IMG/VR virus record: IMGVR_UViG_3300031862_000783
Coordinates: 1 to 31,786 of that record
Direction: 5' to 3' (one strand)
Origin: a virus
DNA: 31,786 nt
Made by a program: the position numbers and the translations under genes. Below the pieces are notes generated by a model that was not told the DNA's origin, did not search any database, and saw only the letters and a program-made list of their open reading frames with translations. Positions 9,979 to 24,220 of the stretch are shown in pieces (within the stretch, counting starts at the first letter, position 1; every line of letters starts with the position of its first letter).

Positions 9979-12513
9979 ATGCCTCAAGAATCAATTTCGC
10001 ACATTAATCATGCTTTGGTTCCCAAAACGCATCCACCAATATACATGATACATAAGTATTGGGCGCGAAAGCCACACAATGTAGTGGAGGAATACATTAA
10101 ACATTATAGTCAGCCATCGGACATAGTTCTTGATCCTTTTTGCGGAAGTGGCGTGACTGTAATTGAGGCAATAAGAAACGGAAGGCTCGCTATCGGTTTC
10201 GATTTAGATCCAGTGTCCGTCATGCTTATGGAATCTTCACTCGAGGAAATTGACCTAGATGAACTTGATGAAGTTTTCAACAGAGTTCTGGCTGATGCTG
10301 AGGACGAAATTAACGATCTCTACAAAACGAAATGCCCAAAGTGCGGCAATACACACGCAGTAATCAGATATGCAGTTTGGAGCAACGTAGTCATCTGCCC
10401 AGAATGCCGAAAGAAAGTCATTATGGCAGAAGCAAAAAGGCCACATGGGAAGAAACAGAACATCTACAAGTGTCCACATTGCAAAGAGGAATTTAGCTAT
10501 GCGAATGTACCAATAATAGGCGAGACTCCCATTTCTGTCACGATTGACTGTGAAAAGTGCCATTCTACGCGTCGAATCGTCAATCCCAAACTTGATACGC
10601 CAAAAGTCGATTTGAGTAGAATCTGGTATCCTAAACTCAAGTTTTCCTACAATGGCGATAAGCCATTTGCGACGAAAAGACGAGCTTCCACAATCGAGGA
10701 GCTTTATACTCCAAGGAATCTTTACGCACTTGCCATTCTATTCAAAGCAATATCGGATGTTCCTGAACCGATGTGCAAGTTTCTTAGACTCACTTTTTCA
10801 TCAATGGTTCCGCAAGCCAGCAAAATGATGATAGTGACCGAAACCCAAGGGCCAGGATGGAAAATGCCTGAATATCTTGTTTGGGCAGTTCATTGCGAAT
10901 TTAATGTTTGGTCGCGTTTTCTCAATCGCTATAAGTCCTTGAAACGTGGTTTGGAAGACAGAAAAGAGACAATGCCAAAAAGTCAAGTAGTAAAGGATTT
11001 TGATTCTCTTGTGTCTGGCAAAGGCAATGCGTTTGTGGAAATGCAAAACGCGCTTGAAATTACGGGAAAGCTTCCACCAGACTCTATTGATTATGTTTTT
11101 ACAGATCCACCTTACGGTGGTTCAATACAGTATTACGAATTAGACATACTTAGAGCAGCTTGGTTCTACGATAAAGATGAACTTGAGCAATGGTGGAGAG
11201 AGGAAATTACTGTAAACACTAGAGGTCAAGGGAAGGATTTTGATTATTACCACAAAATGCTGTCAGCATCTTTTGCTCAGGTATATCGGGTTCTGAAGCC
11301 AGACCACTATCTAACTGTCACATTTCACAGTACGGATATCGATGTTTGGAACTCGATCATAATAGCAGTTCGTTTAGCAGGGTTTGAACTAGAAAAAATC
11401 GTATATCAACCACCCGCAAAAGCTTCAGCAAGAGCGATGTTGCAGCCTTATGGAAGTGCCATTGGCGATTACTATATCAGGTTCAGGAAGCCGAGGCATA
11501 GAAAAGAAATCACGGAAGAACAGGCTAGCCGAGACAAGTATGCTAGAGTGGTTATTGAGACTACCAAGAGAATAATAGCTGAACGTGGAGAACCTACGCC
11601 CTTTACATTTATTCTAAACGGCATCATACCCGAATTGGACAAGCAAGGCGTTTTCTTTGTGGATAGAAGAGGGTCTAGAGGTATAGAGGAAGTTCTCAAG
11701 AATAGACTCAACATCGACTTTGTGCTTAAACCAATTCTCGGTAAGAGTGGAAAAGAAGCTGGTGTTGGATGGTGGTTTAAAGACCCTGGCACAATACCGT
11801 ACTTGGAAAGCACTCCTCTTCGTGAACGAGTAGAAAAGCTTGTTATAAACATCCTAAATAACAAAGTTATAGTCACTTTTGATGATGTACTCCAAGAAGT
11901 TTTCATCAAGTTCCCAAATGCACTTACACCAAATACACAGAGTGTTAGAGAGGTTTTAGAGGAATATGCGACTAAAACGCGTGATAAGAAATGGATGCTT
12001 AAGCCAAAGTACAAAATGAGAGTCAAAGAACATGACATTATAGTGAAGAATCTTGCAGAATTGGGCAAGCATCAGGGGTATGAAGTGCATGCGGATATTG
12101 ATGGTTACAGACAAGCTTCTTTTCCGTTTCAAGCAATCAATCAGAATCGACTCAAAAAAATTGATGTGATCTTTTATTCAAAGAATGATGCAAATGCTAT
12201 ATTCGAGGTCGAAAACACAACGGGAATATCAGAAGCAATAATCAGAGGTAGCAACATCCCTAATCAAAATTTGTTACGCGTGATTGTTATACCAGATGAG
12301 CGAAAACACTTTCTAAAATCTAGGTTACGTGAACCCATTCTGAAAGAAGAAATAGCAAAATACAATTGGTATATGATAACCTACGATGAACTAAGCGATT
12401 TTCTGAACGAGAAACCTTCCAAACAAACTATTGAAGCATTAGCCAACAGATTAGTTCGACTGAGTGACTTCAAACTTCAGGATCAAAGTTCCATGCAGAA
12501 ATTTCTTAGCTAA
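9979..12513 (+). CDS. DNA methyltransferase fused to a nuclease-like domain
   Basis: This 844-residue protein belongs to the amino (N6-adenine/N4-cytosine) DNA methyltransferases of the DUF1156-like kind. Residues 23-40 (MIHKYWARKPHNVVEEYI) and 49-60 (IVLDPFCGSGVT, motif I, S-adenosylmethionine binding) open it. Two zinc ribbons follow (C119/C122/C140/C143 and C165/C168/C191/C194), then the catalytic motif IV TDPPYGG at 375-381. After about residue 520 a second region begins. Near 727-750 it has KKIDVIFYSK and AIFEVENTTGIS, a D...ExE arrangement like PD-(D/E)xK restriction nucleases, with the usual Lys replaced. One chain could thus both modify and cut DNA. The ribosome binding site is weak. 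The gene ends 13 bases before an inverted copy of the island end motif, so it is probably island cargo acting in restriction or self-protection. Confidence 0.8.
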   Translation: MPQESISHINHALVPKTHPPIYMIHKYWARKPHNVVEEYIKHYSQPSDIVLDPFCGSGVTVIEAIRNGRLAIGFDLDPVSVMLMESSLEEIDLDELDEVFNRVLADAEDEINDLYKTKCPKCGNTHAVIRYAVWSNVVICPECRKKVIMAEAKRPHGKKQNIYKCPHCKEEFSYANVPIIGETPISVTIDCEKCHSTRRIVNPKLDTPKVDLSRIWYPKLKFSYNGDKPFATKRRASTIEELYTPRNLYALAILFKAISDVPEPMCKFLRLTFSSMVPQASKMMIVTETQGPGWKMPEYLVWAVHCEFNVWSRFLNRYKSLKRGLEDRKETMPKSQVVKDFDSLVSGKGNAFVEMQNALEITGKLPPDSIDYVFTDPPYGGSIQYYELDILRAAWFYDKDELEQWWREEITVNTRGQGKDFDYYHKMLSASFAQVYRVLKPDHYLTVTFHSTDIDVWNSIIIAVRLAGFELEKIVYQPPAKASARAMLQPYGSAIGDYYIRFRKPRHRKEITEEQASRDKYARVVIETTKRIIAERGEPTPFTFILNGIIPELDKQGVFFVDRRGSRGIEEVLKNRLNIDFVLKPILGKSGKEAGVGWWFKDPGTIPYLESTPLRERVEKLVINILNNKVIVTFDDVLQEVFIKFPNALTPNTQSVREVLEEYATKTRDKKWMLKPKYKMRVKEHDIIVKNLAELGKHQGYEVHADIDGYRQASFPFQAINQNRLKKIDVIFYSKNDANAIFEVENTTGISEAIIRGSNIPNQNLLRVIVIPDERKHFLKSRLREPILKEEIAKYNWYMITYDELSDFLNEKPSKQTIEALANRLVRLSDFKLQDQSSMQKFLS

Positions 12514-21560: not shown

Positions 21561-21959
21561 TTGTCTAGTTCATTTCCACTTGAAGGCCTAACTCCACTCA
21601 TAGCAGATCGTTTTCTCAACACGTATATTGCTGGCGAAGACCTCTTAACAATAGGCTTAGTCGTTGAGCTCACAGGCGACTGGACAGTTAAAAGATGCAA
21701 CACTATGAACAGCACGAAAGTCGTGGGCTTAAACTTGACAATAGCTAAGAACGGTCAGAAAGTTACGGTTGTTGCAAGAGGAATCGCGAGAGCAATAGCT
21801 TATGGCAACATCGTAGCGGGAGACCAAGTTATATCAGCAAGCGCGGGATCTGGAATCGGAATGATCCAAACAGACAACACCTCTAAAAATACAACGGTGC
21901 TCGGACAAGCTATAGCAGGCGCAGTAAGCGGCGGCACAGCAATCATTATCCTTTGGTAA
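21561..21959 (+). CDS. Capsid decoration protein (DUF2190-like)
   Basis: A 132-residue beta-rich protein from TTG 21561 with AAGGTGACTATG before it. Short Gly/Ala/Ile-rich repeats (GLVVELTGDWTVKRC, VVARGIARAIAYGNI, DQVISASAGSGIGMI) and the place between scaffold and major capsid protein fit a head-stabilising protein of the DUF2190 type. Confidence 0.7.
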   Translation: MSSSFPLEGLTPLIADRFLNTYIAGEDLLTIGLVVELTGDWTVKRCNTMNSTKVVGLNLTIAKNGQKVTVVARGIARAIAYGNIVAGDQVISASAGSGIGMIQTDNTSKNTTVLGQAIAGAVSGGTAIIILW

Positions 21960-21972
21960 AAGGTGAATTGAA

Positions 21973-22062
21973 ATGAGTTTCGTACGAGATGCACTAGCAT
22001 GGATTGACAGCGGTGCAGTACAATATCCAGCGCTACATAAGCACATCATCGAGTTAGAATAG
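21973..22062 (+). CDS. Short frame, probably the displaced N-terminus of the capsid protein
   Basis: A 29-residue frame (MSFVRDALAWIDSGAVQYPA, then LHKHIIELE) with a good AAGGTGAATTG site. It ends at a TAG only 28 bases before the capsid ATG. Its sequence looks like the start of a major capsid protein. The bases after it read VYIPIPRE in a second frame, then MPALVVKRLL in the capsid frame. Either it is a separate small protein, or frameshifts have split the capsid gene. Confidence 0.5.
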   Translation: MSFVRDALAWIDSGAVQYPALHKHIIELE

Positions 22063-22090
22063 GTGTGTACATACCTATTCCTCGAGAACG

Positions 22091-22897
22091 ATGCCGGCGC
22101 TGGTTGTAAAACGACTTTTGCCAGAATTTCCGTTGGTGGCTGGCAAGACAGCAACATTTGTGAAAGAGGCAGGCTCCAGAAGTGTTGGCATAAGCGAAAC
22201 CAGCGAAGGCGCAGAACTACTTATGGACTACACACCGCTTAGCACAGTGACGGTTACACCTTACAAAAAAGGCCAAAAAGCACGCATTTCCAGAGAAAAC
22301 ATCGAAGACCTCTACATCCCCGTCATCGAACAGCAGCTCCGACGTCTGGCCAGGCGCGTTGCCTACCAGATCGACCTTGACTGCATGACGGTCATCGCAA
22401 GCGCAGCTGGTTACTCATCTGCAGGGTCGGGTAAAAGCTTAGGTGCAACTGGTACAGAATTTACCGTCACAGGCGGAATCGGCACAAAGGACATTGTGGC
22501 AGCAGATGCTTACATAGCAAGCAAGAACTTTGTCGCTGATTCCTTGATTTGCAATCCCATAAACGGACGAGATCTCAAATATTTGCCCCAGTTTAGTTTA
22601 GCAAGTCAATATGGAGACCCAGTAATACAAACAGGTGCCATTGGCAAAGTTTACGGCCTCGACTTATTCGTCTCTAACGTTTGCTCCGCAGGCTCAGCAT
22701 ACGTCATAAGCACAGGACAAAACCTGTCAGCAAGCTACGCTCCCCTCGGATTTTTCGTAATCAAACGACCTTTGATGACGGATGTTGACCCGAAGAAAGA
22801 GTTTGACAGCGTCGACATAAGTCTGACCACAAGATACGCGCCAGTCGTGCTGAATGGAGAATGCGTCGCTCAAATTACTAACTTGGCTACAGCTTAA
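22091..22897 (+). CDS. Major capsid protein (HK97-like fold)
   Basis: A 268-residue protein forming the icosahedral head. Its place after protease/scaffold and decoration genes, its size, and its sequence (FPLVAGKTATFVKEAGSRSV; an IPVIEQQLRRLARRVAYQID spine-like helix; SLICNPINGRDLKYLPQF; DVDPKKEFDSVDISLTTRYA) fit an HK97-fold capsid protein. The N-terminal arm is short, and ATG 22091 lacks a ribosome binding site, whereas the 29-residue frame just upstream has one; a split of one original gene is likely. A diverged second copy of its last 13 codons lies at 23541. Confidence 0.85.
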   Translation: MPALVVKRLLPEFPLVAGKTATFVKEAGSRSVGISETSEGAELLMDYTPLSTVTVTPYKKGQKARISRENIEDLYIPVIEQQLRRLARRVAYQIDLDCMTVIASAAGYSSAGSGKSLGATGTEFTVTGGIGTKDIVAADAYIASKNFVADSLICNPINGRDLKYLPQFSLASQYGDPVIQTGAIGKVYGLDLFVSNVCSAGSAYVISTGQNLSASYAPLGFFVIKRPLMTDVDPKKEFDSVDISLTTRYAPVVLNGECVAQITNLATA

Positions 22898-22917
22898 ACA
22901 GTATGACGCAATAAATA

Positions 22918-22935
22918 TTAACTTCCCCCTTTTTG
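22918..22935 (+). terminator. T-rich terminator after the capsid gene
   Basis: TTAACTTCCCCCTTTTTG just after the capsid stop. A similar CCCCATTTTTTC follows the displaced capsid tail at 23600-23615, suggesting each copy kept its own terminator. Confidence 0.45.
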
Positions 22936-22945
22936 GAGTAATAGC

Positions 22946-22982
22946 AAAATCTTATATCGGGCTACCTATTATCTTCAATAGG
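22946..22982 (+). promoter_or_regulatory. Promoter of the homing endonuclease gene
   Basis: GCAAAATCTTATATC has a TATA-like core about 27 bases before the GTG start, as in leaderless archaeal transcripts. A small inverted repeat, CCTATT (22965-22970) and AATAGG (22977-22982), covers the start and could fold. Confidence 0.4.
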
Positions 22983-23542
22983 TGATTAAAACGGCTATTG
23001 AGGATAAGGGGGTTAAAATAGAAAAACTCGATTACGGAGTTATAGTCCGTGACGAAAAAGGAAGGATCGCCAAAGGAACAAATTTGTCCTTTTGGAAAGG
23101 CAAAAAGTTTTCGGTTGAGCATAGAAAAAAGCTTTCGGAAACCCAAAAAGTCGTTTCGTTAACACGCAAACCAAGAGTAATCGACAGCGATACCAAGAAG
23201 CGCAGAAGCATGGAACAATCGGAGTATATGAAGAAACGCTGGGCCGACCCCAAATATCGGCAGAACCTGACGCTTAAACTACAAAATTGGTCAGGGGAAA
23301 ATCACGATTTATTGGTAAAGCAGAAATGCGAGGCGCTTCAAGCTCAAGGATTCAGATGTGTGCCGATCGGTTTAATATCTTGTCCAAGGCCTGATATCAT
23401 CGCAATCAAGGACGGCAAAGTGGTCGCTGTGGAGATAGAACGTCGTAATAAGTCCCTAAGTAAATATGAGGGCATAGCTTGGTATGATGACGTTATCTGG
23501 GATATGCATAGAATTAATAATCGCGAACCATGGTACCCTTGA
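22982..23542 (+). CDS. NUMOD3-type homing endonuclease
   Basis: A 186-residue basic protein starting at GTG without a ribosome binding site. Residues 36-55 (SFWKGKKFSVEHRKKLSETQ) match the NUMOD3 DNA-binding motif, and YMKKRWADPKYRQNL at 82-96 resembles a second unit. The C-terminal part has CPRPDIIAIKDGKVVAVEIER, with D138 and E151-x-E153, a PD-(D/E)xK-like nuclease core with the usual Lys replaced. Together these indicate a freestanding homing endonuclease. It sits between the capsid stop and a leftover capsid tail, so its target is probably the capsid 3' end. Confidence 0.75.
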   Translation: MIKTAIEDKGVKIEKLDYGVIVRDEKGRIAKGTNLSFWKGKKFSVEHRKKLSETQKVVSLTRKPRVIDSDTKKRRSMEQSEYMKKRWADPKYRQNLTLKLQNWSGENHDLLVKQKCEALQAQGFRCVPIGLISCPRPDIIAIKDGKVVAVEIERRNKSLSKYEGIAWYDDVIWDMHRINNREPWYP

Positions 23543-23581
23543 ATGCGTTGCACAAATTACGGGATTAGCAACAACTTAAAC
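23541..23581 (+). pseudogene. Leftover 3' end of the major capsid gene
   Basis: These 41 bases encode ECVAQITGLATT and a stop, in line with ECVAQITNLATA and stop at 22859-22899 (32 of 41 bases match). The fragment starts exactly where the endonuclease gene ends. It is either the original capsid tail displaced by insertion, or a 3' exon if the insert is an intron. Confidence 0.8.
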
Positions 23582-23673
23582 TCGATAAACCCTACTTTCT
23601 TATTTCCCCATTTTTTCAAATTTCATAATCAACCCGAAACTTTCAGAGGGGCTCTCCTTTCTCCTTAACGGAG

Positions 23674-23689
23674 GTTTACCCGGGTAAAC
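23674..23689. promoter_or_regulatory. Perfect 16-bp palindrome
   Basis: GTTTACCCGGGTAAAC, 67 bases before the connector gene, in an otherwise gene-free 175-base gap. A symmetric site of this size suits a dimeric regulator; a hairpin at the end of the capsid transcript is the alternative. Confidence 0.45.
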
Positions 23690-23755
23690 TTTCAGAATTT
23701 CAGCAAACCCTCTCTGGAAGCGGGAAATAACAGAAAATCATGATTCGGTGATAAA

Positions 23756-24220
23756 ATGGCAGCAGTGTTTGTTACGGTTTTGGATGTGCAGGCTCAGCTG
23801 AACGCTACGTATGATGCTGCAGCGCGTGTCTACAGTGTCTACGGGCTTAACATTCAAGAAGCGAGCCTGCAGGCGCATGTGGATTACGCGAACACTTACA
23901 TTAGCGCGTTCTTCACAACGGACCTTGCAGTTTCTGACCCGCGGTATTCAGCTGCGAAGCTTGCGGCTTTAGACGTTGCCTGCATTCGCGCTCTCGTGAT
24001 TGCCACCGGCGGTAGTTTAGTGGGCGCCTACGATTATTTCTTGGGCGACCTGCGAGTTTCGAGGGCTGGGCCTTTCGCAACTGCGATTAAGAGCACGATT
24101 GAAGGTTTTAAGGAAGACTTGCTTAGGCAAGTAACGAATGTGTCAACGCCTGTGAAAACGGGAGACGTACAAGAAGCTGGTAAAGTGCCCACATATCGTG
24201 GTGGGGGGGTCTCACCGTGA
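23756..24220 (+). CDS. Head-tail connector-like protein
   Basis: A 154-residue, mainly helical protein with TCGGTGATAAA before its ATG. It is the first gene after the capsid block, where siphoviruses keep the head completion/adaptor protein (gp6/gp15-like). The helical core (LQAHVDYANTYISAFFTTDL, AAKLAALDVACIRALVIATG) fits this family's size and layout. The stop overlaps the next GTG. Confidence 0.6.
   Translation: MAAVFVTVLDVQAQLNATYDAAARVYSVYGLNIQEASLQAHVDYANTYISAFFTTDLAVSDPRYSAAKLAALDVACIRALVIATGGSLVGAYDYFLGDLRVSRAGPFATAIKSTIEGFKEDLLRQVTNVSTPVKTGDVQEAGKVPTYRGGGVSP

Follow-up and report, generated by a model that had tools for sequence, protein, structure and literature searches.

The window, by which we mean the whole stretch of DNA analysed (31,786 nucleotides), is the 31.8-kb viral record IMGVR_UViG_3300031862_000783, which encodes a terminase, a portal and an HK97-type capsid protein. 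It also encodes an 844-aa DNA methyltransferase (9979–12513) whose profile matches are permuted or interrupted, with zinc-ribbon-like matches between them. In profile searches the capsid protein matches Pfam PF25209 (2.9e-9) and the major head protein family phrog_1650 (3e-13), and among annotated phages the closest capsid belongs to Halogranum tailed virus 1 (25% identity). Its close relatives, at 80 loci (L002–L081), come from metagenomic viral contigs. A capsid with 67% identity to that of the window lies in L086, a provirus in a Candidatus Bathyarchaeota MAG, and more copies are present in genomes of the class Bathyarchaeia. Because the provirus and these further copies sit in genomes of that class, the host of the virus is most likely a member of Bathyarchaeia. 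The capsid locus is laid out as follows:

21973–22055, plus strand: putative capsid exon 1 (MSFVRDALAWIDSGAVQYPALHKHIIEL...), fused in frame to the capsid in most relatives, for example L061 (MSFQRDALTWVDSGAVAYPALHKKIIELTMPALVV)
22056–22086, plus strand: predicted 31-nt bulge-helix-bulge (BHB) mini-intron, with a BHB score of 17.5, the best of the whole window (p=0.001 against shuffles)
22087–22897, plus strand: capsid exon 2 (HK97-type major capsid protein; PF25209, phrog_1650), including the present tail
22859–22897, plus strand: replacement tail brought by the element (ECVAQITNLATA and stop), differing at 9–10 of 39 bases from the empty-site relatives L002–L004, with 7–8.5% in the gene body
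22898–22935, plus strand: 3' flank of the replacement tail by sequence, with a T-rich run and a borderline likeness to the native flank (p=0.05)
22965–23010, plus strand: RNA hairpin at the nuclease start (-18.9 kcal/mol, z=-3.9)
22982–23542, plus strand: putative homing endonuclease ORF of PD-(D/E)xK type with an Hjc-like core, 186 aa, from profile matches; the start codon is uncertain
23541–23579, plus strand: displaced resident capsid tail (ECVAQITGLATT and stop), identical at 37–38 of 39 bases to the capsid tail of L002–L004
23580–23620, plus strand: native 3' flank and T-rich terminator of the capsid gene; 77 of 80 bases in 23541–23620 are those of L004
23756–24220, plus strand: next conserved gene, a right-hand landmark by its position relative to the capsid stop in relatives

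The capsid frame that starts at 22091 has 268 codons and stops at 22897, where a sequence-only reading of this DNA had placed its end; the true start is probably 21973, upstream of the BHB intron. That reading had also described a second copy of the capsid 3' end exactly at the nuclease stop codon, and this holds: the TGA at 23540–23542 overlaps the first bases of the copy (GAATGCG..., from 23541), and 32 of 41 bases match between 22859–22899 and 23541–23581, with a binomial chance of about 1e-11 per position. The duplication is real, although its unit is 12 codons and a stop, not the 13 codons first proposed. The two tails differ silently at five codons and carry two residue changes (N/G and A/T); at the protein level the downstream copy scores 46, and the best other place downstream reaches 20. 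The label "same frame" applies only to how the copy is divided into codons; the offset between the tails, 682 bp, is not divisible by three, and the nuclease and the second tail are in different frames. The left boundary of the insert is ambiguous across the shared GAATGCGT, and the insertion point, at the left edge of the native tail, lies at, or a few bases past, codon 256 of the 268. In a scan of 2476 ORF ends, over all loci and both strands, a tail copy around an intervening gene was found only in the window (and in its own copy, L001); two further matches are both on the antisense strand, and one of these, in L107, was discarded because it is an internal repeat of a tail-type gene read in antisense.

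Which of the two tails is native is settled by relatives with an empty site. The capsid proteins of L002–L004 are 97–98% identical to the window's and the nuclease is absent; L003 and L004 are without the insert, and their next gene starts 95–96 bp past the capsid stop. Alignment with the insert-free relatives matches the resident tail to 23541–23581, not to 22859–22899. The tails of L002–L004 are 1–2 of 39 bases away from the downstream copy and 9–10 of 39 from the upstream copy (5–6 silent codons and two amino-acid changes), the latter a divergence within that of the most variable 13-codon stretch of the gene body (for L002, 9 against a maximum of 9; for L003, 10 against 12). The 3' flank of these relatives also matches the flank of the downstream copy. 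Because both tail and flank match the empty-site relatives, the downstream copy is, judged by this comparison, the native tail in a displaced position, and the tail now joined to the capsid gene, the upstream one, is newly arrived. The proposal of an element that arrives with a capsid tail of its own and displaces the resident tail is thus supported, as insert-free relatives carry the 23541–23581 version with its flank. The T-rich terminator reported after the second tail is present, but since empty sites have this stretch too, it is native to the locus; the upstream tail has a T-rich stretch of its own (22920–22935). By comparison, the capsid gene joined to the upstream tail encodes a full-length capsid protein, and the element seems to keep the gene working by carrying a replacement ending.

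The landmark gene lies 68–1280 bp past the capsid stop in most relatives and about 3.1–3.8 kb past it in a minority. In many relatives (L005, L006, L012, L022, L036 and L040) the interval between the capsid and the next gene is occupied by variable genes, most of which encode membrane-like proteins of about 130–180 aa. Extra genes in this interval were considered as further nucleases and set aside, as those read encode mostly membrane-like or other non-nuclease proteins.

The family profile of the nuclease matches Hjc-type Holliday-junction resolvases (2eo0, 3.9e-5; 1hh1, 4.4e-4; range to 5.5e-4) and also, weakly, the DNA-binding part of I-TevI. The core reads PDIIAIKDGKVxAxEVE, with PDII..K invariant; the catalytic motif in the window is PD...ExE rather than ExK, and DxK occurs in L061 and L065. 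A NUMOD3 match, suggested earlier for the window protein, is not significant there but is significant in the relatives L058 (1.9e-12) and L082 (1.2e-4). The nuclease structure predicted with AlphaFold is of low confidence (pLDDT 58) and could not support a fold search. Some relatives of the nuclease lie in capsid-gene introns (L058, L061 and L065), and others are free-standing ORFs, including one that immediately follows a capsid-like gene (L083). In a DegT-type aminotransferase gene of a viral contig (L084, 3975–5966), the nuclease of an intein belongs to the same family. None was found in annotated phages. An intein, introns and free-standing ORFs are settings typical of homing, and these relatives therefore support the view that the window ORF encodes a homing endonuclease. 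The hairpin at 22965–23010 may hold back its translation. Two 7-mers, AATAGGT and ACCTATT, have only two occurrences each in the window, always as the arms of a hairpin, once in the mini-intron (22058–22079) and once, in the opposite order, just upstream of the nuclease start (22964–22983); this may be chance.

A second locus, L027, whose capsid protein is 66–68% identical to the window's, has the same arrangement. Its first tail (ECICAITNLATS) differs from that of L030 at 14 of 39 bases (nine silent codons and one that is not), with 9.9% in the gene body (p=2.5e-5); control pairs without the element show only 2–8 differences in 39. A truncated nuclease, with 55% identity to window residues 134–177, directly follows the capsid stop, and after this relic come a second tail and flank that match L030 (5 differences in 57). 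Judged by this shared layout, L027 is a second, independent case around a decayed nuclease. The body of the L027 gene is nearest to L059 (6.2%) while its tail is nearest to L086, and the tail thus has its own history. In the provirus L086 (5001–5807) the tail is 11 of 39 bases from L030 and L062 and 5 of 39 from L027; there is no second tail, and a search of the genome that holds L086 gave no nuclease match. The recoded tail of L086 may be a remnant after loss of the element, or L086 may represent a donor lineage. A DNA pattern search of viral contigs found no donor virus with the exact upstream tail of the window. The pattern common to the tail-1 copies (ATTACYAACTTGGCNAC) had 23 matches in viral contigs, one of them (L131) the L027 contig itself, where about 23 are expected by chance.

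Taken as a whole, we think it likely, with good confidence, that the 3' insert is a homing element of the mobile-ORF kind that restores the coding sequence it enters, made up of a replacement capsid tail, a terminator and an endonuclease. On this model the nuclease would cut the uninterrupted capsid tail of an element-free virus co-infecting the same cell, and during repair the element would be copied across, its left arm provided by the capsid body and its right arm by the displaced tail with its flank. Silent changes in the imported tail would be enough to escape cutting and would protect the carrier. Full-length capsid protein would be made without RNA or protein splicing at the 3' site, and the displaced tail would persist as an untranslated remnant. 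The nuclease would later decay, as in L027; its loss may follow, with the new tail left behind, as perhaps in L086.

An alternative is that the capsid end was first duplicated locally in tandem, that the nuclease arrived later or hitch-hiked, and that the upstream copy simply drifted, with no homing. In both imported tails the amino acids are those of the respective clade (window, ECVAQ; L027, ECICA), hence a near origin, as a duplication would give. The two tails also have ATT-ACY-AAC-TTG-GC in common, and may stem from near donors or be duplicates recoded under selection to escape cutting. A tandem origin requires the same accident twice, in two clades and with the same nuclease clade between the tails; it also leads one to expect drift in the untranslated downstream copy, yet it is there that the sequence is conserved. 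Neither the 2476 ORF ends nor the 76 relatives in L002–L081 whose 3' end is readable include a duplicated tail that lacks nuclease sequence. We regard a tandem origin as improbable.

The case for splicing deserves serious attention because putative BHB introns occur at five sites in the capsid family. Candidates were scored by the BHB rules (a 4-bp central helix, 3-nt bulges and a cut after the second bulge base) and compared with shuffles in which exons and length were fixed and the intron was shuffled. This test recognises 25 of 27 other interruptions of the family (p<=0.022), not all of them independent; the two that failed, both at site D, had been given a wrong junction offset, and one of them, in L074, scores 19.5 in a free scan. 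The inserts of relatives lie at codons 45, 55, 216–218 and 223 and often have a length that is no multiple of three, and predicted splicing restores the conserved protein, as in FFV|IKRP. Introns without an ORF measure 25–68 nt, and those with a nuclease 534–794 nt. At three sites, nuclease-bearing and ORF-less introns occupy the same place in different viruses; some viruses have two introns within one capsid gene (for example L073, L074 and L076). The introns at the lettered sites are:

Site A, nuclease-bearing: L061 (534 nt) and L065 (663 nt)
Site A, 25–68 nt: L064 (4151–4175), L067, L068, L069, L070, L076, L098, L099 and L110, the last located in a genome of the class Bathyarchaeia
Site B: L073, L074 (794 nt, with a Vsr-like nuclease), L066 and L038/L079
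Site C: L058 (643 nt, with a nuclease), L071, L076 and L099
Site D: L063, L073 and L074

The window has its own candidate at 22056–22086, with a BHB at both junctions and a restored frame that joins the ORF from 21973 to the capsid. Its removal gives HIIEL-T-MPALVV, and the product, HIIELTMPALVV, is exactly as in intron-free relatives. The same mini-intron is found in L003 and L004, and L002 has at this site a longer intron whose inner helix is unrelated but fully paired. From their predicted structures, the BHB introns of the capsid family look spliceable by archaeal machinery.

Could the 3' insert likewise be a spliced intron with a nuclease ORF, in which the shared GAATGCGT joins the downstream tail and the upstream tail is read from unspliced RNA only? 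True nuclease-bearing BHB introns exist elsewhere in the same capsid family (L058, L061, L065 and L074), and three genomes of the host class each have two EndA-type endonuclease genes, both points in favor of this alternative, which the sequence-only reading had also raised. Against it, the insert scores 6.0 at 682 nt, the sole seamless length (shuffled mean 5.5, p=0.37), and the L027 insert 4.5, whereas true introns score 8.5–17.5. The upstream tail, moreover, is kept as protein by silent changes, which the start of an intron would not need. A group I or II intron was also considered, and no Rfam match was found up to E=1 in 21900–23800. As the BHB test failed at the junctions and Rfam gave no intron match, we reject the intron reading for the 3' insert and rate it as quite unlikely. 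An intein was discarded as well: the capsid frame stops at 22897, the nuclease is in its own frame and no Hint profile matches. Least likely of all, and in our view very improbable, is an assembly chimera of two co-occurring viruses; the window is a single metagenome contig, but both flanks are syntenic with relatives, the same structure occurs in an independent contig from another sample (L027), and the overlap between the stop codon of the nuclease and the displaced tail is exact.

We favor, with somewhat more reserve than for the element itself, the idea that the capsid gene of Bathyarchaeia tailed viruses is a hot spot for homing. Related nucleases would avoid breakage of the gene either by residing in internal BHB introns, removable by the EndA splicing machinery of the host, or by replacing the 3' tail, with one relative housed in an intein of another virus, and the mini-introns of 25–68 nt would be what is left of decayed homing introns. 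Some of these mini-introns share splice sites with nuclease-bearing introns. On this hypothesis, viral capsid genes would be a source of archaeal protein-coding introns, and a single gene family in which empty, nuclease-bearing and mini-intron alleles exist for one splice site offers a direct test of whether archaeal introns arise through homing followed by decay. A practical consequence would be that the capsid genes of such viruses are mis-called by ordinary gene finders. The intron-rich context matters more than the 3' element and is the larger surprise.

Several known systems bear comparison. Free-standing homing endonucleases of the Seg/Mob type in phage T4 lie beside essential phage genes and are thought to spread by cutting lines without them. 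The window nuclease likewise adjoins an essential phage gene, with a start region possibly in an RNA hairpin. To our knowledge, free-standing phage homing endonucleases carry no replacement piece of the target gene and leave no displaced copy, unlike the window element, which has both a replacement tail and a displaced copy.

The other capsid-family inserts fit the BHB rules, as do the archaeal introns of the cbf5 pre-mRNA, tRNA and rRNA (PMC2738675); the 3' insert of the window differs from these in having no BHB. As of 2009, archaeal pre-mRNA splicing was confirmed essentially only for cbf5, and the same paper mentions an archaeal virus with putative 12-bp introns (PMC2738675). Compared with these, the capsid introns are viral, occupy five sites and, where they carry an ORF, encode PD-(D/E)xK or Vsr-like nucleases. 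A paper on Bathyarchaeia viruses leaves introns unmentioned (PMC10848311), and in the limited set of literature searched we found no description of BHB introns in a viral capsid gene, nor of a tail-replacing element in a virus or prokaryote.

The closest parallel to the 3' element is with the mORF elements of fungal mitochondria, described in atp6, atp9, cox2 and nad3 of Glomus and in atp6 of Allomyces macrogynus (PMC3630166). In both, an endonuclease ORF lies at the 3' end of a gene, an imported C-terminal piece is in frame with that gene, and the native C-terminal piece is displaced past the ORF and is the one closer to element-free relatives; as in Glomus, the imported piece is changed mostly at silent sites and no splicing is needed (PMC3630166). 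The structural and distributional features of mORFs are thus found here: an ORF absent from L002–L004, an in-frame imported tail, a displaced native tail and a patchy distribution, with two occupied loci, one of them decayed, and relatives otherwise empty, although the cases are few. There are also differences. The window element resides in an archaeal tailed virus rather than a mitochondrion and targets a virion capsid gene rather than a respiratory gene; its nuclease is a putative Hjc-like PD-(D/E)xK enzyme by profile, whereas the fungal ones are LAGLIDADG or GIY-YIG; and its tail is very short, at 12 codons. If our interpretation is correct, gene-end replacement, which in the literature searched is confined to fungal mitochondria, would extend to an archaeal virus, where it acts on a virion gene and employs another class of nuclease, and tail swapping would offer a route for capsid C-termini to move between viruses.
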